Below are positions 11,089 to 26,219 of a DNA stretch of 64,000 nucleotides, piece by piece. How positions within the stretch are numbered: the stretch's first letter is position 1; the number at the start of each line of letters is the position of its first letter. Source of the stretch: a virus; the IMG/VR virus record IMGVR_UViG_3300027749_000096, positions 1 through 64,000 of that record, one strand, 5' to 3'. The notes under the pieces were generated by a model. It saw only the letters and a program-made list of their open reading frames with translations, was not told the origin of the DNA and made no database searches. The position numbers were made by a program, and so were the translations under genes.

Positions 11089-11553
11089 TTATTTTAAGAA
11101 TAACAATTTATATTTTGTTGAATCAATTAAACTTTTAACATTGTCAAGTTCATTAACTATTTCACTGTGTGGCATAACTGATTGTAAAGACTGTACTTTA
11201 TCTTTTATTTTTCTAAGATAGTCTATACCTTCTTCTACAGTATTTAATTCTGCTGGGGCTGTATTAGGAAGTTCTAATATTTTTTCTTCAGCTCCTTGGA
11301 AGTGTTCTACTAAATCATCAGCATGTTCACCTATTTCATCATAAAAATGACCTAAAGCTTTATGAGCTGCATAAGAACCAAGCCCAGTCACTTTAAGATG
11401 TAATTTATGAAAGCTTGTTACACAGTTTAACAAGTCTTGAGCTAATGCTGCTGTTTGCATACATAGAGCACATGTTTCAGATCCACCATCCATAGAAACC
11501 ATAACAGTTACTGGATTAGATGAAAATATACTATTTCTAGATATTTTTTGCAT
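11089..11553 (-). CDS. Helical protein, unknown virion-module gene
   Basis: This 154-residue protein is mostly alpha-helical (HKALGHFYDEIGEHADDLVEHF; VEEGIDYLRKIKDKVQSL) with a CALCMQ motif near residue 28. The helical pattern around HFYDEIGEHAD resembles the four-helix ferritin-like/Dps fold (helix B of Dps contains H...D...E). This is only a loose visual similarity, and the full ferroxidase site is not evident. It lies between the large beta-repeat protein and the connector-like gene. Confidence 0.6.
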   Translation of the reverse strand: MQKISRNSIFSSNPVTVMVSMDGGSETCALCMQTAALAQDLLNCVTSFHKLHLKVTGLGSYAAHKALGHFYDEIGEHADDLVEHFQGAEEKILELPNTAPAELNTVEEGIDYLRKIKDKVQSLQSVMPHSEIVNELDNVKSLIDSTKYKLLFLK

Positions 11554-11563
11554 ATTTTATAAT

Positions 11564-12265
11564 TTAACTATTTGTTTGTACAGCTTGTTGTTCTCTTTGA
11601 TATTGTGTAACACTTTCAATATCACCAGCTAATATCATAGCTGTATTGTCAGCTATTATTTCAGCTACATCATCATTAAACTCACATTCTTGATCTGATG
11701 TATAAAAAGTACCTGTTGCTATATCTATACAACCATTGAATTTAATTTCTCTAGGTTTTCTATAATATATTAAATGACATTCAGGAATAGTAAATTCACC
11801 ATTTGTATAAACTTTAAGTTTATTACTCATTATAGTTGAAACAGTTTCAGCCCAGTCAAAGTTAGGTTGTTTATTTTTATCATCTAATATGATTGATATA
11901 TTAGCTTCTTCTACTTGATACACTGTCATCCTACGTGGAGGACAACATTCTTTCTCAGCAAATACATCTGTTCTAACATAGTGAAGATAATCATCTGGTA
12001 GATTAGAGCATTCATAATAAATACCTTTATCCACCATTGTTACTTCTACATGTTTTAATAACTTCTGTACATCATCAACTATTCCACTACTTTGTTCAGC
12101 ACCTTCTTTACGAGTATTAATAGCATATAGTTGTCTTCTAGTCCACTCAATCTGAGCTTTATTAGCTGCTTCTTGAATCTGCCAACATTCTAGATTATCA
12201 TAATCCAATGAGGCTAACTTATTCAGTCTCTGCTTTATTTTAATCTGTAAGAGGTTATTATTCAT
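11564..12265 (-). CDS. Connector/tail-adaptor-like protein
   Basis: This 233-residue protein has a helical N-terminus, a central LPDDYLHYVRTDV segment, then beta strands with CCPPRRM and IYYRKPREI. The LPxDYL.. context resembles phage adaptor/tail tubular proteins that close the portal ring, but the match is by eye. It is followed closely (3 bp) by a small basic protein. Gene order after capsid and small proteins supports a head-tail connector role. Confidence 0.6.
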   Translation of the reverse strand: MNNNLLQIKIKQRLNKLASLDYDNLECWQIQEAANKAQIEWTRRQLYAINTRKEGAEQSSGIVDDVQKLLKHVEVTMVDKGIYYECSNLPDDYLHYVRTDVFAEKECCPPRRMTVYQVEEANISIILDDKNKQPNFDWAETVSTIMSNKLKVYTNGEFTIPECHLIYYRKPREIKFNGCIDIATGTFYTSDQECEFNDDVAEIIADNTAMILAGDIESVTQYQREQQAVQTNS

Positions 12266-12518: not shown

Positions 12519-12752
12519 TTATTTTTTATAAGGATGTTCTTTATGCCATTTTTTAACTGAAGCTACTCCCTGTTTAACAGTTTTAGCTTTAGATTTTTGA
12601 GTAAGGTCTATAGTGTCCCATTTTCCTTTATCTGATGTAGGATGAGTAACCATAATATCACCCTTCTTACCTTTACCTAAACCTGTAGCACTTTCTTTTT
12701 TATATACTACATGTTTCTCACCACCTGCTGTAACTTTAGTTTTCTTAGCCAT
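12519..12752 (-). CDS. Small basic protein
   Basis: This 77-residue Lys-rich protein (MAKKTKVTAGGEKHVVYKKE...) ends WHKEHPYKK. Its start overlaps the stop of the upstream gene by 1 bp (both use 12752), so translation is coupled. It belongs to the cluster of small basic proteins in the virion operon. A nucleic-acid-binding or internal-head role is a guess from charge only. Confidence 0.7.
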   Translation of the reverse strand: MAKKTKVTAGGEKHVVYKKESATGLGKGKKGDIMVTHPTSDKGKWDTIDLTQKSKAKTVKQGVASVKKWHKEHPYKK

Positions 12753-13726
12753 TATTTTGGTAATCCTGCTTTAAAAGTTGTTGTTAAATCAGTAAAAGTT
12801 GATGCTCCTTTTGCTAGTTTTTGAAAACTAACTACATCTATATATGCTTCATATCCATCATCTACATTTATAAAAGTACCACTCATAAAAAATATATCTC
12901 TTGTACTACCATTAATTAAATTTGCTCCACCTATTGATTTTATACCTGTAGTACCTACTAAAAATGTTTGACCAGCAGCTCTTATAATTTCTGTAGCTAT
13001 TACCATTTGAGCAGGTGTAACTGATCCAGTTAATGGAGCTAGTAATGTTCTATTAGCTGGTTGTGCTATTATATTAGTTAAAAAGAATTGTTGATAATCA
13101 TCAACAAAATTTGATTGTACAGGTGTACCAGCATTACTAATAGCCCAACTTACAGCTGCAGCCACTGCACCACATGAAGTATTTTGTCCTGTTTGTCCTC
13201 TTCTAATTATAGAACCAACTGTCCCATTACTAGATATACCTATATGAGGCATATTCATAACAAACAGATTTCCTGTATTAGTGACATGACTAGCATAAGC
13301 TCCCAGTCCAGTGATACCTGTATGAGGATAACCAGCTAAACCACCAGACATAAATGGTCCTAAAAAATCATTCAATGATAAAGGATGTTGTCCTAAGTTA
13401 TCATTATCTACAAAATTAGCAGCATTAATATCATCAGAACAAACTGATAAAGACATCAATGTATCATTAGCAGGATAGCCTAAGTTCTTTAAAAACTTCT
13501 TGGTATATTCTCCAAATGCTTGAGCTGATACAGCATTAGGGTATGTAACTCTAACTGTATTAGTATAAGAAGTTGGATTTCTATATTCTGTGTTTTCATT
13601 TATCACCTCAATCCAATCTCCTGGTTTAGGTTTTCTAAATGAATAAGTTAATGTACCAGCAGCTATTGAACCATCTGGCTTACGTAGTACATAAGGTTTT
13701 TTAGGTTTGGTATTATTACTTCTCAT
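12752..13726 (-). CDS. LCIB-like beta-carbonic-anhydrase-fold protein
   Basis: This 324-residue protein contains SVCSDDIN (C96, D98), SGGLAGYPHTGITGLGAYASH (128-147), MPHIGISSNGTVG (159-171) and RRGQTGQNTSCGA (175-187). The order of Cys-x-Asp, the Gly-rich GGLxGxP..G loop, PHxGI, RRG and SxxCG matches my recollection of the LCIB/LCIC family, a group of beta-type carbonic anhydrases from algae and some bacteria. On that reading C96, H161 and C185 would be the zinc ligands. The family match is moderate confidence. The location among virion proteins is odd for an enzyme. It could be a catalytic moron or a structural protein built on the fold. Confidence 0.55.
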   Translation of the reverse strand: MRSNNTKPKKPYVLRKPDGSIAAGTLTYSFRKPKPGDWIEVINENTEYRNPTSYTNTVRVTYPNAVSAQAFGEYTKKFLKNLGYPANDTLMSLSVCSDDINAANFVDNDNLGQHPLSLNDFLGPFMSGGLAGYPHTGITGLGAYASHVTNTGNLFVMNMPHIGISSNGTVGSIIRRGQTGQNTSCGAVAAAVSWAISNAGTPVQSNFVDDYQQFFLTNIIAQPANRTLLAPLTGSVTPAQMVIATEIIRAAGQTFLVGTTGIKSIGGANLINGSTRDIFFMSGTFINVDDGYEAYIDVVSFQKLAKGASTFTDLTTTFKAGLPK

Positions 13727-14480: not shown

Positions 14481-14999
14481 TTAAAAGTCTTTATGTTTTT
14501 GAAGATACTCCAGTAATCTTTCTGCAGTGTTTACATTATCATCAATTTGTCCAAGAAATCTATTACAATTTCCACATAACAAACCTCTAACTTTTCCTGT
14601 CTTGTGACAGTGATCAACTGCTAATGATCTATCTAGCTTATCTTCATGTTTATGACAAATATAACATCTGGAATCTTGTTCAGATAACATTTCATTATAT
14701 TTCTCAGGAGTAATACCATATTTTTTCTTAAGTATATGTGCTCTCTGCTTATCTAAGTTATATAGTTTTTTACTTCTAGTTATATAACATTCTTTACAAT
14801 ACCAGCCATTTTTAGGTCTATCTAAAATATCTTTCCAAGTATCACAATTTGTACAAAAGAATTTACCATTTTTATATAAATTATAAGTTTCAGCTTCAAT
14901 TTTAAGTAACTCTTCAATAGATATACCTTTTCTTTTAGCTCTTCTAGCTATTTGATAAGGATGTTGATTTCTTATAGATTCTTTTTTAATTCCACTCAT
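14481..14999 (-). CDS. HNH homing endonuclease, endonuclease VII-type
   Basis: This 172-residue protein has an N-terminal helix-rich region (ARRAKRKGISIEELLKI), a first zinc-finger-like block (CTNCDTW...WYCKECY) and a C-terminal recombination-endonuclease-VII-like domain. That domain has CYICHK..., AVDHCHKTGKVRGLLCGNCNRFLG and a final helical tail. The DHCHKTGKVRG.LC..CN motif is the hallmark of the family. It is inserted between two small virion genes and overlaps the upstream small gene by 4 bp (ATGA). A free-standing homing endonuclease is the likeliest reading; a debranching nuclease is an alternative. Confidence 0.85.
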   Translation of the reverse strand: MSGIKKESIRNQHPYQIARRAKRKGISIEELLKIEAETYNLYKNGKFFCTNCDTWKDILDRPKNGWYCKECYITRSKKLYNLDKQRAHILKKKYGITPEKYNEMLSEQDSRCYICHKHEDKLDRSLAVDHCHKTGKVRGLLCGNCNRFLGQIDDNVNTAERLLEYLQKHKDF

Positions 15000-15167: not shown

Positions 15168-16184
15168 TTATTGATTCCAATGTTTTTCTACTTTCTTAGT
15201 TAAGTCCCCAAGAATTTCTTCATTTAAAGGATTTCTAAGATATTCAACTACATCAGTTAGGTTACGTCCTAATAATGTTGTAGTTTGCATATGATAAATA
15301 AATCCATCAGCTTTGGTAGCAATATATCTATAGTAATTACTTTCTTTCACTATAGCTTTAATTTTCAAAGCTTCCATATCTAAATTAGCAGCCTCAATAA
15401 ACTTCTCTGCAGTTTTTCTTTTGTTCTTATCTACAGACTCTCCGTTAATAAACTTATCCATGTTATCATAGATGATGTCATTAGGAGTGGTTTTTTTATA
15501 CTGAGCACCGTTGATGTCAAGTGTCTTAGCTACTAAGAATAACTTATTCTGATTTTTATTATAAAGTTTCTCTAATTCAGAAAGAGCTTTATTTCTAAGT
15601 TTCTTAACTTCTGTATTAACCGATGCACTCTCTTCAAGTCTATCTAAATAAAACTTAGGAGGGGTAGCCATTCTACGTGCTTCTTCTAAAGATTTAGCCA
15701 CCATAGAAAATCCACCAGCTTCAATTGCATAAAGTCTAATTAAATCATATGGGTCTGTAGCTGGTTCTAAATGAACTGGTTCATTTCCACATCTGATTTT
15801 AATCTTATCCCAGAAATCACTATTATCTAGTTTAAGTAATTTTACTTTATTCCAGAACATTTCATCATTAGCATCAATAACATTAGCAGCTAGTTCTTTT
15901 TCTAACTGAGCCACTATGCTTCTAATTTGTTTCACCTTAGCTTCTTGATCTTCTAAAGGAAGATTCTTAACTTCAGGAGCATACTCATTTAATCCTGTAA
16001 GGTATCTTTTAATACCATTAATTTCTAAACAAGCAATAGTTTCTTCATGAAAAGCTCCATCAAAAAGACTAAGTCCATATTTCTGTAAGCCCATGTTATC
16101 TACTTGAACATCAAAATAAGGACGGATTGCAATACTAGATTTCTTGTTCTGTGGATACTTTTCCACAATTGTTACATTACTCAT
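15168..16184 (-). CDS. Conserved virion-module protein, unknown
   Basis: This 338-residue mostly helical, charged protein (MSNVTIVEKYPQNKKSSIAIRPYFDVQ...) has a FWNKVKLLKLDNSDFWDKIKIRCGNEPVHL segment near 120-148. A long helical part (about 165-215) follows. No enzymatic motif is visible. It lies two genes downstream of the capsid protein, where crAss-like phages carry head-neck or head-auxiliary proteins. That assignment is by position. Confidence 0.65.
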   Translation of the reverse strand: MSNVTIVEKYPQNKKSSIAIRPYFDVQVDNMGLQKYGLSLFDGAFHEETIACLEINGIKRYLTGLNEYAPEVKNLPLEDQEAKVKQIRSIVAQLEKELAANVIDANDEMFWNKVKLLKLDNSDFWDKIKIRCGNEPVHLEPATDPYDLIRLYAIEAGGFSMVAKSLEEARRMATPPKFYLDRLEESASVNTEVKKLRNKALSELEKLYNKNQNKLFLVAKTLDINGAQYKKTTPNDIIYDNMDKFINGESVDKNKRKTAEKFIEAANLDMEALKIKAIVKESNYYRYIATKADGFIYHMQTTTLLGRNLTDVVEYLRNPLNEEILGDLTKKVEKHWNQ

Positions 16185-17101: not shown

Positions 17102-18046
17102 TTATAATTTTAAATTGTTTGTAAAATATGTTTTATAAATTTGATATTTTCGGTCTAAAGATATACAAGAATCTTTATATAAATAGTTTGCTATTTTTTT
17201 AGCATCTTCTCCATAATAAGAAACTCTGTAAAAATTTTTACCAGAAACTTGTGTTGGATACTTTTTATCAGTTTGAATTATTTTAGAACAAAAAAATATA
17301 AATTCAAATATTGTTTCAAGAGTTCCACATAACATTAAATGTTTCATTTTATCTTTAGTAAAATAAATACCCCCATCTCCATCTATACATCCTCTCCAAA
17401 AATCTTTGGATTGTTTTAATAAATCATGAGGAATTATAGAAACACTTTTATTATGTGTAAAACCTAAATCAACTAAACGATCTCTAATTTTTTTAGAATT
17501 AACTCTCATTCTTGAACAATCACCTTTACCTTTTTTAACATCTCTATTAGATTTTAGAAAAGCTTTAAATTTTTCTAAATGATCTATATCATTGTTATGT
17601 AAGGTTAGTTCAATAGAAGCTTCTTTATTTTGTTCTATGTGACCGTCTGTATATAACATCCCAATCCAATATAAAGCTTCACAAGTTAACTCATCAAAAA
17701 CATTATGATCTATTTCAGTTTCATACCTAATGTGAGCCTGGTTTGAAAGATTCCTATATTCTACATCTTTAGATTTAAGAAATTCTCTTATAGTTTTACG
17801 TGTTAAATTTAACTCTTTTTCTATAAAAATTTGAGACTTCCCCTCCTGATATAAAGATAAGACTTTTTCAAAACATTCTTTTCTTTTTTCTTCTTGTTCT
17901 AGATTATAATCTATACCAACATTTGAAAGAACTTTTTTAACACTTGGTTGTGAGGAAGATGTTAACTTACATATTTCAGTTAACATCTTTCCTTCTTTGT
18001 ACAACCTTATTATTTCTTCGGATTTTTCTAAACTTATTTTTTTCAT
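17102..18046 (-). CDS. LAGLIDADG homing endonuclease
   Basis: This 314-residue protein has two helix-turn-helix-like N-terminal repeats (EIIRLYKEGKMLTEICKLTSSSQPSVKKVL and VLSLYQEGKSQIFIEKELNLTRKTIREFL). Two LAGLIDADG helices follow: LYWIGMLYTDGHI (about 123-135, catalytic D) and FWRGCIDGDGGIY (about 222-234, catalytic D). Two motifs in one chain give a monomeric enzyme that makes a long-site double-strand break. It lies directly downstream of the capsid gene with a 59-bp gap and is not inside an open reading frame. It is therefore a free-standing homing endonuclease, likely targeting the capsid region of related phages. Confidence 0.88.
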   Translation of the reverse strand: MKKISLEKSEEIIRLYKEGKMLTEICKLTSSSQPSVKKVLSNVGIDYNLEQEEKRKECFEKVLSLYQEGKSQIFIEKELNLTRKTIREFLKSKDVEYRNLSNQAHIRYETEIDHNVFDELTCEALYWIGMLYTDGHIEQNKEASIELTLHNNDIDHLEKFKAFLKSNRDVKKGKGDCSRMRVNSKKIRDRLVDLGFTHNKSVSIIPHDLLKQSKDFWRGCIDGDGGIYFTKDKMKHLMLCGTLETIFEFIFFCSKIIQTDKKYPTQVSGKNFYRVSYYGEDAKKIANYLYKDSCISLDRKYQIYKTYFTNNLKL

Positions 18047-18105: not shown

Positions 18106-19725
18106 TTAAAAGGATCCACCAGTAACAGGGTTTCTCATAACTATTTTCAATACCTTAGTTGGATCTTTAACCCAGATAGCAGGCATTGTTTGAGTCATAA
18201 ATACTCTATAACCATTGAAGTTACCAGAGCTTTGGAAACCTTGTGTTCTACCCATATAGTCCATTGTACCATTTTGATAGAACCATTTCAATTGATTATC
18301 CCAGCTTAATTTCAACAAGAAGATGTTGTCATTAGTATTATCTGTGATGTCAAAGATAATGAAATTATATGAACTTAATGGGAAACCATCAATAATTGGA
18401 TTCTCAATATCATTTGTATGAACATTGTCAAATGCAGGGTTCAATACAAATTTAACGTTAGCTAAGAATGGGATGATGTAACTAGTGTATGCAAAACCAA
18501 AGTTTAAATCCATACCTGTACCAGTAACAGCTCCTAGTTCATGAGCATTAAGAACTAAACCAGAATTAACTGCTTCTTTCTTAATTGCTTCATTAACAAG
18601 TTTCATACCACCCATACCTGTTTGTACAATCAAAGATCTTTGAGGATCTGGTCCTTTAAATTCAACTTTACCATTGAAGAAGTTGAAGATTTCAGATTTA
18701 AACAAGTCTAAGTTGAAAGAAGCTTTGTTATAGATTCTCTTATAAGAGTTATCTAATTGCTTCCAAAGACCCACTGATAAACGAATATCATCTGGTCCAT
18801 CTTGTCTAACCTTACCACCTTGACCCCACATTAAGTAAGTTTCAATGTCATTAGCAATCTTAGTTAAGTGTGCTGCTTCTAATGTAGTTAAGAAAGAACG
18901 TGTAAGTTGACCATTAGCATAAGCTTTCTTTACATAGTCTTTACCCATTTTCTCAGCCATTGTTTCCAAGTTGGTAACAGATGGATCTACATTTTTGTCA
19001 AAGTTTCTCCACATTTCAATAACTGGGATAGTACCATCAGCTTTCATACCACCTTTCATCATTAAGTCTGCACGACTAGAAATAGAATAGTGTACGTGAG
19101 CTTCTGCTCCACCAACATAGTTATAGAATTCACGGAAACCAGCTGATACATTACCTAAGTCTGAGAATCTTTCTCCATACTCTCCACGAGCAGAACCTTT
19201 TCTGAAAACTTTAGTACCAACTTTCAAATACTTATTGTCTAAGTATTTAGTGTTGTCATTGTTCACCAACTGTACAGTGTAGATAAAACCATCACCAGCT
19301 GGGATGATATCATCAACTGTAATGTACATTTCCACACCATTGTACTTGTCATAAGTGATAATATCACCATGACCAAATGAACGTTTGTTCAATTTGATTT
19401 TAAATGTTTGACCATCAATACCTTTAGTAGCATTACCTGTTTCAATGTCTTCAGTAATGTAAGGAAGATCCTGAGCTACAGGTATCTGCCATTTGTACTC
19501 ACCACGGTTATTATCTACTGAAATAACATTCTTTCCACCAAAACTAGACATTTGGTATAACGGCATTTCTACTTTTTGAGCCATTGCCCATAAGTCCACT
19601 GGACCTAAATCTGTAGGTTCAGCTGATTTAAGGAGGTTAGAAAGGTGATAAGAGTCTACGTGTGAGCTTGTTTGATAATGGTTATCACGTAGAAATATAC
19701 CATTATTTAAAACTGGAGTTGCCAT
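18106..19725 (-). CDS. Major capsid protein
   Basis: This 539-residue protein starts MATPVLNNGIFLRDNHYQTS. Its length, the N-terminal region ending SSFGGKNVISVDNNRGEYKWQIP, a long E-loop-like basic segment (GTKVFRKGSARGEYGERF) and the place right after portal and scaffold genes match crAss-like major capsid proteins with the HK97 fold. It would assemble the icosahedral shell around the portal. The assignment rests on recognition of the family and synteny. Its gene uses carefully spaced codons with fewer AT-only codons than its neighbours, as expected of a highly expressed gene. Confidence 0.88.
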   Translation of the reverse strand: MATPVLNNGIFLRDNHYQTSSHVDSYHLSNLLKSAEPTDLGPVDLWAMAQKVEMPLYQMSSFGGKNVISVDNNRGEYKWQIPVAQDLPYITEDIETGNATKGIDGQTFKIKLNKRSFGHGDIITYDKYNGVEMYITVDDIIPAGDGFIYTVQLVNNDNTKYLDNKYLKVGTKVFRKGSARGEYGERFSDLGNVSAGFREFYNYVGGAEAHVHYSISSRADLMMKGGMKADGTIPVIEMWRNFDKNVDPSVTNLETMAEKMGKDYVKKAYANGQLTRSFLTTLEAAHLTKIANDIETYLMWGQGGKVRQDGPDDIRLSVGLWKQLDNSYKRIYNKASFNLDLFKSEIFNFFNGKVEFKGPDPQRSLIVQTGMGGMKLVNEAIKKEAVNSGLVLNAHELGAVTGTGMDLNFGFAYTSYIIPFLANVKFVLNPAFDNVHTNDIENPIIDGFPLSSYNFIIFDITDNTNDNIFLLKLSWDNQLKWFYQNGTMDYMGRTQGFQSSGNFNGYRVFMTQTMPAIWVKDPTKVLKIVMRNPVTGGSF

Positions 19726-21136: not shown

Positions 21137-23890
21137 TTATTTTTCTTTCTTTTTATCAGATTGTTTAAAGTCATATTTGTTCTTATTTTCTCTAGCTATC
21201 TGAAGTTGTTTATCAGCTATCTGTTGTTGAGCCTGAAGCTTCTCTCTTTCTATATTATGTTTTTCTTGAGTTTGAGCAGTTCTATTAATTTCCTTTTCAC
21301 GGTCAAAATTCATAGCTTCCTGATAGTTCTGTTGTTCTTGAATTTTAGACATAGCATCTATATAATCAGACTGGTTATTTTTATTAAGATCAACCATAGC
21401 TCCCATACCAGAAGCTCTAATCTGAGCCTCAAGAATTCTAGCTTTTCTATCTTTCTCAGACTCATCAGCTTTAAATTGATTAGAAGCTTGTAATGCAGCT
21501 TGTTCAGCTTGGATTTGTTTATCCTGCATTTCTTGTTGATGTTGTTGTTCCTGTTGTTTCTGAGCATTAACTTTTTCTTCAGCAGATTTAAGAACACCTG
21601 TAAGTTCAGCAATAGACTCTGATTTAATTACATTACCTAAGTCATATATAGAAGCTCCTGTAGCATTATTAGTGAGAGCTAGTTGTTTAAGCTGCTCCAT
21701 TATAGCACGAGAATTAGTTTTAGTTGTACAGAATATATTTAAATCTCTAAGAAGTAAATCTGTTCCATTCATTTGGAAATTTATCTTCTCATCAGCTCCA
21801 GTGATATATTGTAGACGTAAACTAGGTTTTTTAGAATTATAATATTGAGCTAAATCAGTTCTCATTTGATGCACTCTAGGCATCAAGTTATCTGAGTGTT
21901 GTATAAAGTATTGTTCTGTTTGAGCATAAGAAGCATTAGCTGCTTGTTCCACCCCTGTAGCAGTTTGTTGTTGAGCAATCTGCATACCCATCCTTTGTTG
22001 ATTCAATCCAATAACTTCAAAAGCTTGAGTTTTAAAATAGGTGGCTAATTGTATCCTAGATAGTAAACGTTGAGTTTGTTCTAAGTTCAACACTTGATAG
22101 TGCTGAAAATTAAGAGCATTCTCTGTATTAGTGATACTAGTGTCTAAAGGAAGCATTTGGAAGTTTTTCATAGCTACATAAGCTTTAGCTAGATTGTTCT
22201 TACCCCAATCTTCTCCCAATGAGTGACGTGGTAAAGCATTCTGATCTAACATAATAACTGTACCTAATTCATCCACAAGAATATCTGCTATCTGATTGTT
22301 TACAATGTTATATCCAATCTGAAATGGTTTCATTAAATCTACAAGAGATACTGAACGGGTATTTCTATCCCCAAATACAGATCCTTCTACAGGAAGTTTA
22401 CATCCATAAACTGTAGCATCCCCTTTAAACTGAAAAGGTACACGTCCAGGTCTACCACCATTAAGTCCTAAATATATAGGATTTATACCTCCAGGATTAT
22501 TCATACCCCAGAAAGCTGGTCTGTTAGGTCCAATCTTTACACCACCCCAAACTTCATTAATCCATATCCAATCTATATGTTCTCCAAACACTAAATTATC
22601 TTTAGTATTTTGTTTCCATATAGAATTATCATATTGTGGTTTGTCTGTAACCTTATATTCTTCTGATATAATATCTTGTATAATATCTCCTTCTGTAGTT
22701 ATCTTAGTAAGGTGCCCAACTTTTCTTTGACTCTTCCAATAAATAGTTGACACTCTAAGCATATAACTTTTACCAAAATCTTGCAAGTCTTCTGAGTCTG
22801 AAAGTATCCACTGTACAATATCTCCAAATTGACTTCCAGCATCATATAAAGACGTAAACTGTCTATACCCCAAACTAGGCATTTGTGTATTCCATTCATG
22901 AGTTCTCTTTGGGTCATAATAGCTTCCATCATTTTGCATTCCTTGTATAGCATACCCAGCTGAACGTGCAGGATATATAGCTTCTAAAGCTTCTAATTGT
23001 TGATCATTCATCATCCATCCATACTTATCTACAACATCTGATATAGACATCATATCTAATTTACCCACCCAATTACCTTGGGATACATAACGTACATCAG
23101 GACTTTTATGGTAGAAAGTAAGTAGGGGATTCCATAGTTCCACCTCATAATCATCTTCCATCATATTAAAATGCCAGAACTCTCTATCTGTAATAAGACT
23201 ATCTCTAAAAGCTCTTTCTTCTAATTCCTGCATTCTAAATCTTTCTTCATCAACTTTCATTTGATGATCAGCCCATTCTTCAATCATTGATCTATAATCT
23301 TTCTTAAAGAACTGTTCTATTTCAGGAAGGCTTTTAAGTTTTTCAGGATTTAATTGTTGTTGAGCTTCTTCACTAGATGGATCTAATCCCATCTCCATTA
23401 TAGTAGCCATTTGTTTTTGTTGAGCCTGTTGTAATAACACCTTCTCAATCATTCCTCTTTTCTCTTCTAACATCTCATTATATGACATGTCATCAACAGC
23501 TCTAAACATTATTCTTGAACTTCTTTTAGAAAATTCATTTGTAAGAACATTAATTACATTAGGAATAATAGGATAGAATTTAAGCTCAAATGCTGATACA
23601 TCTTCTTTAGTTAATGTATCAATAAGATCAGCCATCTCATTATCTTCTTCTACAATATAATCTTGTTTATCAATAATACCTTTAGCTAATTTATAATTCT
23701 TCATTAAACGTCTAGCATTACGTCTAAGTTGTTTCATACCCTGAAACTCTAACCAGTCAAGATTCCATGCTCTCCATTGATCATCCTTTTCTTTTTCTGG
23801 TACAAACTGAAATGGTTGGATTAAAGTTCCCATCTTGTTGTACTCAACCTTTGCCCCCTTTTTGAGATCTAATGCATTATATATCTTCAT
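21137..23890 (-). CDS. Portal protein
   Basis: This 917-residue protein starts MKIYNALDLKKGAKVEYNKM. Its size, the N-terminal DYIVEEDNEMADLIDTLTKED region, many Trp/aromatic segments in the middle (WGMNNPGGINPIYLGLNGGRPGRVPFQFKGD) and a long Gln/Glu/Lys-rich coiled-coil C-terminus (about 775-917, repeats of QEQQHQQEMQDKQIQAEQ) fit crAss-like portal proteins. It would form the dodecameric ring through which DNA enters and leaves the capsid. It is preceded by the terminase and followed by scaffold and capsid, the conserved packaging order. The C-terminal coiled coil is long but within what this family shows. Confidence 0.85.
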   Translation of the reverse strand: MKIYNALDLKKGAKVEYNKMGTLIQPFQFVPEKEKDDQWRAWNLDWLEFQGMKQLRRNARRLMKNYKLAKGIIDKQDYIVEEDNEMADLIDTLTKEDVSAFELKFYPIIPNVINVLTNEFSKRSSRIMFRAVDDMSYNEMLEEKRGMIEKVLLQQAQQKQMATIMEMGLDPSSEEAQQQLNPEKLKSLPEIEQFFKKDYRSMIEEWADHQMKVDEERFRMQELEERAFRDSLITDREFWHFNMMEDDYEVELWNPLLTFYHKSPDVRYVSQGNWVGKLDMMSISDVVDKYGWMMNDQQLEALEAIYPARSAGYAIQGMQNDGSYYDPKRTHEWNTQMPSLGYRQFTSLYDAGSQFGDIVQWILSDSEDLQDFGKSYMLRVSTIYWKSQRKVGHLTKITTEGDIIQDIISEEYKVTDKPQYDNSIWKQNTKDNLVFGEHIDWIWINEVWGGVKIGPNRPAFWGMNNPGGINPIYLGLNGGRPGRVPFQFKGDATVYGCKLPVEGSVFGDRNTRSVSLVDLMKPFQIGYNIVNNQIADILVDELGTVIMLDQNALPRHSLGEDWGKNNLAKAYVAMKNFQMLPLDTSITNTENALNFQHYQVLNLEQTQRLLSRIQLATYFKTQAFEVIGLNQQRMGMQIAQQQTATGVEQAANASYAQTEQYFIQHSDNLMPRVHQMRTDLAQYYNSKKPSLRLQYITGADEKINFQMNGTDLLLRDLNIFCTTKTNSRAIMEQLKQLALTNNATGASIYDLGNVIKSESIAELTGVLKSAEEKVNAQKQQEQQHQQEMQDKQIQAEQAALQASNQFKADESEKDRKARILEAQIRASGMGAMVDLNKNNQSDYIDAMSKIQEQQNYQEAMNFDREKEINRTAQTQEKHNIEREKLQAQQQIADKQLQIARENKNKYDFKQSDKKKEK

Positions 23891-23895
23891 GATTA

Positions 23896-23997
23896 TTAAT
23901 TAGTTATAGTGTAAAATATTTCTGTAATAGAAGATGTAGCATTTGAATATACAAATTCACCAGCACATACATCTGAAAGTGTCATAGTGTATTCCAT
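23896..23997 (-). CDS. Very small ORF between terminase and portal
   Basis: A 33-residue ORF (MEYTMTLSDVCAGEFVYSNA...) starts in a TAATG overlap with the terminase stop and ends 5 bp before the portal start. The tight fit supports translation, but it is short and has no recognisable features. It may instead be a spacer. Confidence 0.4.
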   Translation of the reverse strand: MEYTMTLSDVCAGEFVYSNATSSITEIFYTITN

Positions 23998-26219
23998 TAT
24001 CTTATGTTTTTAAAAGGATTTCTTGATGGTCTCATCATTGATGACCCTGCTCTACCAGTCCCCATATGTTTAAAGGGACTATAGTTTAATTTACTAAATT
24101 TTTGTGAGTTATCCAAATGTATATTTGTAACTTCTGTACGTTTAGACATTCCTCTGTTAGATTGTTGTACTTTAGCAAAAGCTACAAGAGAACAAAATGC
24201 TACAAGTCTATCCACGTTTAGTCCATCTTGGTACATCTCCATTTCTTTTAATAACATAGGATCAGGGATTCTTTCCACTCCATATATTATTTTTATTATG
24301 TTTCCATTTACATCTGTTTCATGATCAAGCTCCTCTTGTAGATATTCTATACCATAGGAAAGAATGTTTCCTTTAAAGAGTGTACCAACGTTTTTCCAAC
24401 CATATTCTTGGAATACATTTCTATTAGCTCCAATGTCTTTTAAAAATAACACCATGTCTTTTGGTACCAAATACCTTTGCTTTCTTTGAGAAATCATGTA
24501 TTGTATAAACAAAGCTACGTTGTTCTCTACAAGTGTCCAGGCATTATACCATTCTATAAGTATTTCTAAACGTTCATGTGTTTTTTTAATATCATCAAAT
24601 CTACCACACCAGCTTGCTACTATTCCATCTCTTTCTATATGACTTTTAACATCTCCGTTATCATCATCCTTTATAATCTCTACAGGATTTTTATATACAT
24701 ATATAGAACATAAAGAATCTGATGTATTTGTTTTACCCTCACTCACTGGATCCACACTAGCATAGTACATACCAAATGTTGGATTCTTACATGGACGTTC
24801 ATACACACATATAACTCCTTCTTTATCTTCAGCTTTTTTATTAAAAGGAAACTCCATAATAGGAGCTTTTCTAGATTGTTTATCTATAATTTTACCTTCA
24901 TCATTTCTTGTAAGTTCCAGATACTCAACACTATAGGTCTTTTCTTCTATACGTTGCATTTGTTTAGAAACCAAATGGGGAGGAAATATAGATTCTTTTC
25001 TTGTAGCAAAAGCTTCTTCTATATTAGTGGGTTTCTGAGATATACGTAGTTGGTACTGGTCTGGGGGTAAATCTTTATACCACTGTTTTCTTTCTTCTAT
25101 TATAGCCTCTAAAGCTTCTTTAACTAAAGAGTTACCAGCTTCATCTATATAAGGAGGCATACTCCATTGTTCAGGAATAAACAGTCCTGTTTCTCCAATA
25201 GTTCCTTTCTTATCTATTAGATTAGTTTTAACAGCAAACATTCCATATCTGTGTGGGAACAACATCATACTCTTTAAGGGTTGACATTGTTCTAAATCAC
25301 CCACAGATCCTGCTGCTATAAATGTACCAGTGGTCACCATACCACTCTGCATAGCTGGTCTCATAAACTCATAAGTGTCCATCATCTTAGGAGCAATACC
25401 TGCCTCCTCATGGAAGAAATAAGTTACAGGACCACCCACACCATTTGTAGGATCTTTCTCAAAAGATGTACCTGTGATGATAGACTTATTTCCTTTATAA
25501 GTGTCACGGTTGTTTATCCTAACTTTAATACGTTGCTGCCAAGAGAATATTTTATCTGGTTCAGATGGTCTATACCAAGCTGTATGTTCATTAAGGAAGT
25601 TTCTATATTCATTTAGCATTCTCCAAGAACCTTTCTCAGAAATGTAGTCTTTAAGGCTGGCACCTATTTTATTTACAGATCCTTCTTCAAACCAATATTG
25701 ATTAATCAACTTAGCCATATGGAAATATGAAGAAGCTATCTGACGTTTCTTTAATATAGAAATATGTTTATAAGATAGTTCTCCTAACACTTCATATAAA
25801 GCCATATGGTATTGAGTGTCTCTTACATCAGCAAACCCAAACTTTTTTATTTCTTTATTATAAATAGGTAGGAAGTTTATCCACATGTAATAGTCTCTAG
25901 TGAGGTACCATGTTACTCCATTCTCTATGAATATCACTCCCCATCTACATTTAGCTTTTTGATCATTCCAATATTCTATAAAGTCTTTACTCTTTAAAGG
26001 AGCTTGACAATAGAATCCATAAGATTGAAATCTTCTAGCTTCATTATTAAAATGTCTAGAAATATTTACAGTGAAGTTATATCCCTCATCAGGACCAGCA
26101 TCTTTAAATACTGAACGTACAAAGTCTCTAAGTTCTTCTCTAGTTTGAAATGTTGTAGTTCCCCATTTACCATCTGTCCATGTAGGAATTTCAGCATATA
26201 ATTTGTTTGTATTAAGCAT
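23997..26219 (-). CDS. terL: Terminase large subunit
   Basis: This 740-residue protein is the packaging ATPase/nuclease. Visible features are a Walker A-like KKRQIASS (157-164), a Walker B FFHEEAG (268-274) with catalytic Glu, and the C-terminal nuclease domain with acidic YYASVDPVSEG (D490) and KDIGAN further on. The KRQIASS form of the P-loop is typical of crAss-like terminases rather than the canonical GKT. It translocates DNA into the prohead through the portal and cuts the concatemer. It ends in a TAATG overlap with a tiny ORF, then the portal. Confidence 0.9.
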   Translation of the reverse strand: MLNTNKLYAEIPTWTDGKWGTTTFQTREELRDFVRSVFKDAGPDEGYNFTVNISRHFNNEARRFQSYGFYCQAPLKSKDFIEYWNDQKAKCRWGVIFIENGVTWYLTRDYYMWINFLPIYNKEIKKFGFADVRDTQYHMALYEVLGELSYKHISILKKRQIASSYFHMAKLINQYWFEEGSVNKIGASLKDYISEKGSWRMLNEYRNFLNEHTAWYRPSEPDKIFSWQQRIKVRINNRDTYKGNKSIITGTSFEKDPTNGVGGPVTYFFHEEAGIAPKMMDTYEFMRPAMQSGMVTTGTFIAAGSVGDLEQCQPLKSMMLFPHRYGMFAVKTNLIDKKGTIGETGLFIPEQWSMPPYIDEAGNSLVKEALEAIIEERKQWYKDLPPDQYQLRISQKPTNIEEAFATRKESIFPPHLVSKQMQRIEEKTYSVEYLELTRNDEGKIIDKQSRKAPIMEFPFNKKAEDKEGVICVYERPCKNPTFGMYYASVDPVSEGKTNTSDSLCSIYVYKNPVEIIKDDDNGDVKSHIERDGIVASWCGRFDDIKKTHERLEILIEWYNAWTLVENNVALFIQYMISQRKQRYLVPKDMVLFLKDIGANRNVFQEYGWKNVGTLFKGNILSYGIEYLQEELDHETDVNGNIIKIIYGVERIPDPMLLKEMEMYQDGLNVDRLVAFCSLVAFAKVQQSNRGMSKRTEVTNIHLDNSQKFSKLNYSPFKHMGTGRAGSSMMRPSRNPFKNIR

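Follow-up and report, generated by a model that had tools for sequence, protein, structure and literature searches.

What is a gene for a protein related to carbonic anhydrases doing among the virion genes of a phage? The gene (12752..13726, minus strand) lies in a window of 64,000 nucleotides, the whole stretch of DNA analysed here, which is part of a single virus record of 72,005 bases. An initial annotation, made from the sequence alone, had described this ORF as an LCIB/LCIC-type β-carbonic-anhydrase-like protein in a virion gene cluster, and had offered two explanations, an auxiliary metabolic gene or a virion protein.

An LCIB-family gene in the structural cluster of a crAss-like phage

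The ORF starts with ATG, is free of internal stops and encodes 324 amino acids. Its assignment rests on a Pfam profile, PDB chains of the LCIB family and an AlphaFold2 model, and the original description held in coordinates, profile and fold. LCIB_C_CA (PF18599) was the sole Pfam family found, at 117.5 bits against a cut-off of 25 (E 7e-34); a profile search had been named as the check that could refute the claim, and it did not. With phmmer against PDB chains, the best scores were to 6kfs (3.6e-20) and the diatom LCIB homologue PtLCIB4 (2.3e-17), and only LCIB-family chains gave significant matches. No family for the protein was found in PHROGs, PADLOC or NCBIfam, and it is therefore uncatalogued there as a phage or defence protein.

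The phage is crAss-like by its major capsid protein (18106..19725, minus strand; Crass_capsid PF23898, 8.3e-33; phrog_11589), portal (21137-23890; phrog_6547, 1.4e-90) and terminase (23997-26219; phrog_6681, 3.1e-62). The LCIB gene is placed between the crAss-type capsid genes and the tail genes, so the claimed setting also held: the neighbours are virion genes. Close relatives keep the order terminase, portal, 422-aa protein, capsid, 338-aa protein, LCIB. The 338-aa protein (15168..16184, minus strand; cluster 3) is conserved between the capsid and LCIB genes in this phage group; its identification as the crAss001 auxiliary capsid protein gp36 was unsupported, and a weak collinear match to gp33 was found instead. 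The start of a 77-aa basic ORF (12519..12752, minus strand), retained in close relatives, overlaps the LCIB stop codon, and a 233-aa virion structural protein (11564..12265, minus strand; phrog_29507, 1.6e-07) is encoded nearby.

Three further genes of the region deserve mention in their own right. A ferritin-like DUF5856 protein (11089-11553, minus strand; PF19174, 1.7e-15; phrog_858, starvation-inducible regulator, 6e-20) is Dps-like and retained in the structural cluster of the phage group; the reason for its presence among virion genes is unexplained. Next to the capsid gene lies a LAGLIDADG endonuclease gene (17102-18046, minus strand; phrog_4645, 3.1e-47); another gene, of the endonuclease VII type (14481-14999, minus strand), is found upstream of the LCIB gene. 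Both endonuclease genes are missing from some relatives and are likely to be homing elements.

Predicted fold

The AlphaFold2 model was built from 26 aligned sequences and has a mean pLDDT of 80 and a pTM of 0.76. Foldseek matched it to PtLCIB4 (5b5y) with E 4.6e-15. In VIA-align, model residues 52-319 (12770..13573, minus strand) superimposed on the same structure with a Z-score of 25.6, at 2.5 Å over 238 residues. Scores were similar for 6kfs (Z 25.4), followed by Chlamydomonas LCIB (5k5w, Z 20.7) and LCIC (Z 19.8); classical β-carbonic anhydrases gave weaker matches (Z about 11) and carbonyl sulfide hydrolase 3vqj scored only 6.8. On the predicted model, then, the domain is the LCIB version of the β-carbonic anhydrase fold, with Z-scores well above those of the classical enzymes. 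The first 50 residues fall outside the fold match, and residues 100-110, just past C96, form a low-confidence stretch. A structural search of viral models (BFVD) with the protein returned nothing below E 0.001.

The active site is intact in sequence

The motifs originally listed, SVCSDD, GGLAGYPHTGITGLGAYASH, PHIGI, RRG and TSCGA, are all present, and the numbering given for the three putative zinc ligands C96, H161 and C185 was right. These three held, and D98, H147 and R175 can be added as further invariant active-site positions. The putative first zinc cysteine and the aspartate of the CxD motif lie in C96-S97-D98 (13433..13441, minus strand), aligned with C46, S47 and D48 of PtLCIB4. On the same strand follow H147 (13286..13288), aligned with H88, the residue mutated in the H88A structure 5b5z; H161 (13244..13246), the putative zinc histidine, aligned with H102; R175 (13202..13204), aligned with R116; and C185 (13172..13174), the putative second zinc cysteine, aligned with C126. 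From H147 on, the spacing of 14, 14 and 10 residues is the same as in PtLCIB4. We take the Cys-His-Cys set to be zinc-binding and the aspartate and arginine to assist, as is known for β-carbonic anhydrases; our statements about the active site are based on alignment and on a review (PMC5876011). The predicted structure did not refute the claim either: the LCIB/β-carbonic anhydrase fold was found with all aligned active-site positions retained, a result that rests on alignment and not on distances between the ligands in the model.

All six positions (C96, D98, H147, H161, R175 and C185) are invariant in 75/75 distinct phage sequences and in 43/43 bacterial homologues. The phage sequences are otherwise diverse, with an average identity of 48% (lowest 30%) and only 9% of columns conserved at 99% or above (n = 75). 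The residue before the second cysteine is T or S in phage and C in bacteria and in the diatom protein. We infer from this conservation that the zinc site is intact in sequence; zinc binding and catalysis have not been measured. The motifs are no proof of catalysis, because Chlamydomonas LCIB and LCIC retain the fold but had no activity when purified, for which disorder of His162/161 and Arg194/193 has been proposed as the cause (PMC5876011). By our inference these residues are the counterparts of H147 and R175.

Some N-terminal modules are shared with neighbouring proteins, and the crAss-type tag follows capsid type

Residues 1-46 (13589..13726, minus strand), which lie outside the fold match, are the proposed virion docking peptide. 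Tags of this type are ∼ 45 aa long, with a PGSL core and then a G-x-W-x-E-V stretch. A profile made from them matched the window protein (E 5.2e-22 at 13589-13720) and also, in the same genomic neighbourhoods of related phages, more than 20 ORFs that do not encode LCIB proteins. The other carriers include BspA-LRR (5.7e-26), Fib_succ_major (6e-36) and Thr-rich proteins, the Fib_succ_major protein having two tags in series. When whole records were searched, 13/13 crAss-type records were positive vs 0/7 with a T4-type head protein; the 13 include two (G016 and G020) in which no capsid gene was detected and which were grouped with their crAss-type relatives.

Phage LCIB proteins usually carry an N-terminal module, and at least six kinds of unrelated N-terminus occur. 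A second module, MPNVPDFRDL, also occurs on Pro/Thr-rich neighbours. The third, LTLRxTKGSALTxxEMDGNFEYF, is also found on a 776-aa fibre-like protein and has a weak match (E 0.3) in Flavobacterium phages, annotated as tail fiber protein; the LCIB protein of L130 has an N-terminus of this LTLRxTKGSALT kind. Immediately upstream of some LCIB genes, ORFs of only 67-89 aa (L130:749-1018, L135:5678-5881 and L148:652-873) consist of the third module alone. A second copy of the T4-group N-terminal module was sought in four records and not found, and searches of other proteins for the modules of L010/L012 and L025/L161 were also negative. The shared-anchor argument is therefore limited to three module types. 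Sharing of modules with fibre-like neighbours is as expected of docking modules, a function that we infer from architecture. Comparison of the tag with crAss001 gp21 and gp29, by eye only, revealed no similarity.

Distribution and evolution of the phage proteins

Members of the LCIB family are encoded on about 80 viral contigs from metagenomes, in viruses whose capsids are of the crAss or T4 type. Among 25 records examined for capsid type, 11 have a crAss-type capsid protein, eight a T4-type head protein and none both. On T4-like contigs the LCIB gene directly follows the gene for the portal (L018) or for the major head protein (L027). Some large records (L010, L012, L020, L025, L028, L153 and L161) have LCIB genes in tandem pairs, and the second gene of each pair has little or no N-terminal extension and is without the long module. 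It is possible that such copies form mixed oligomers with the first, as LCIB and LCIC do. With the window protein, a T4-group relative and the tag as queries, tblastn gave no match in 50,697 phage records, and we found no report of an LCIB-type protein in phages in the literature searched. Within these records and this literature, we found no description of an LCIB enzyme that is likely part of the virion and carries interchangeable tags.

Bacterial homologues are bare enzymes of ∼ 248 aa with nothing before the domain. The same ∼ 250-aa domain is found in Bacteroidota LCIB proteins, at 29-39% identity. A bestrophin gene adjoins the bacterial LCIB gene at 41/75 loci, suggesting that the closest cellular relatives are involved in handling bicarbonate; in algae, where LCIB-type enzymes handle carbon dioxide, LCIB and bestrophin likewise serve together for bicarbonate. 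In Bacteroidota and others (L032-L111), Bestrophin_2 stands beside LCIB on the same strand, possibly as a bicarbonate-handling operon, and some bacterial LCIB genes adjoin an ion channel or Na/H exchanger gene.

In a phylogenetic tree the phage sequences fall on one side of a branch with a support of 100, and recent acquisition from a host was rejected on the basis of this separate clade. The tree is a quick one; its bacterial sequences are limited to the best 80 hits from a scan for motifs of the phage proteins, and long branches join at its base. One set with the third module is nested within the crAss-tagged part of the tree, which indicates that the module was exchanged and the enzyme kept. 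The gene is under purifying selection (dN/dS among close relatives 0.20-0.43). Compared with the window allele, those of L004 and L005, two relatives, diverge mainly within an internal block, with near-identical flanks, and the abrupt changes in identity suggest exchange of this block between alleles by recombination.

Discussion

Of the two explanations offered at the outset, a virion protein is the better supported, since the N-terminal tag also occurs on adhesin-type neighbours and follows capsid type. The invariance of the active site speaks against an inert fold merely put to a new use. We propose that the protein is a two-part virion component, a displayed LCIB-type carbonic anhydrase, a reading that we prefer by a modest margin, with display inferred from architecture and catalysis from conservation. 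Residues 1-46 would serve for docking, as a tag that is specific to particles of the crAss type, and residues 52-319 would form a complete LCIB-type β-carbonic anhydrase shown on the particle. By analogy with gp21 and gp29, whose N-termini occupy hexon pockets, the tag may bind the capsid or tail, although there are no binding data. The domain is predicted to bind zinc and to interconvert CO2 and bicarbonate plus a proton, again without zinc or enzyme data. What the phage would gain is a speculative guess; the enzyme might, for example, control pH and CO2/bicarbonate locally, at the surface of a respiring aquatic Bacteroidota cell, while the phage attaches or delivers its genome.

The architecture gives good support for display, but no particle has been analysed and no virion proteomics exist for these phages. 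The second tandem copies, with their short N-termini, and the lack of visible likeness between the tag and gp21/gp29 count against display. Catalysis is supported by conservation, although LCIB homologues can be inactive and no enzyme assay has been done.

The domain resembles LCIB/LCIC (PF18599; PtLCIB4 5b5y, 6kfs and 5k5w) in its whole fold and in the six active-site positions, and differs in the N-terminal tag, the phage-only clade, the T/S before the second cysteine and the virion-gene setting. Bacteroidota LCIB proteins lack an N-terminal module and have bestrophin neighbours instead of virion genes. The crAss001 head fibres gp21 and gp29 use residues 1-38 and 1-58, respectively, for docking, and uncharacterised proteins were expected to have the same docking role in other crassviruses (PMC10172136). 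We propose a shared logic, in which a short N-terminal segment is anchored in the capsid and leaves a variable domain projecting from it; the tag nevertheless has no recognizable sequence similarity to gp21 or gp29, and their projecting domains are not enzymes. A carbonic anhydrase fold is also displayed on the virion of vaccinia, where the D8 domain binds chondroitin sulfate (PMC4256255). D8, however, is a membrane-anchored adhesion molecule of an animal virus and is not docked by a tag; its fold is of the α type.

The alternative that survives best, and that remains possible, is a non-catalytic adhesin, in which the fold would be on the particle solely to bind a surface ligand, like D8. The other tag carriers resemble surface-binding modules (BspA LRR and Fib_succ_major), the middle of the protein has apparently been swapped between close alleles by recombination, Chlamydomonas LCIB and LCIC are inactive in vitro (PMC5876011), and D8 shows that a virus can reuse a carbonic anhydrase fold as an adhesin (PMC4256255). 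Against this stands the invariance of the six aligned active-site positions in every phage sequence of a diverse family, since some of these should have been lost from an inert scaffold.

We consider it unlikely that the protein is an auxiliary metabolic enzyme, a late product of the structural operon that is absent from the particle and acts on CO2/bicarbonate in the host cytoplasm for nucleotide or fatty-acid synthesis. Its intact active site, the LCIB genes beside bestrophin in bacteria of the likely host phylum and the short N-termini of the second tandem copies would agree with such a role. However, the tag is also found on adhesin-like proteins and is tied to capsid type, two virion types that are unrelated to each other both have the gene among their head genes, and the phage-only clade does not consist of recent copies of host genes. 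Another hydrolase on the β-carbonic anhydrase fold, for instance one acting on carbonyl sulfide or carbon disulfide, is very unlikely: 3vqj has the same fold, but its Z of 6.8 is far below those of LCIB (Z 20-25.6) and also below those of the classical enzymes (about 11), and the nearest cellular relatives adjoin bestrophin.

The displayed carbonic anhydrase can be put more boldly, namely that tailed phages of two unrelated kinds carry a working carbonic anhydrase on the exterior of the particle, held by interchangeable docking tags, and that the virion itself would thereby interconvert CO2 and bicarbonate at the host surface during entry; we see no firm ground for leaning either way on this stronger version. 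The tag itself may serve as a tool, being a short peptide that apparently marks the decorations of crAss-type particles and that could find other displayed proteins. If the proposal is confirmed, virions would carry an inorganic-carbon enzyme that has been kept in two virion types unrelated to each other, and phage entry would be connected to CO2 or pH at the cell surface.
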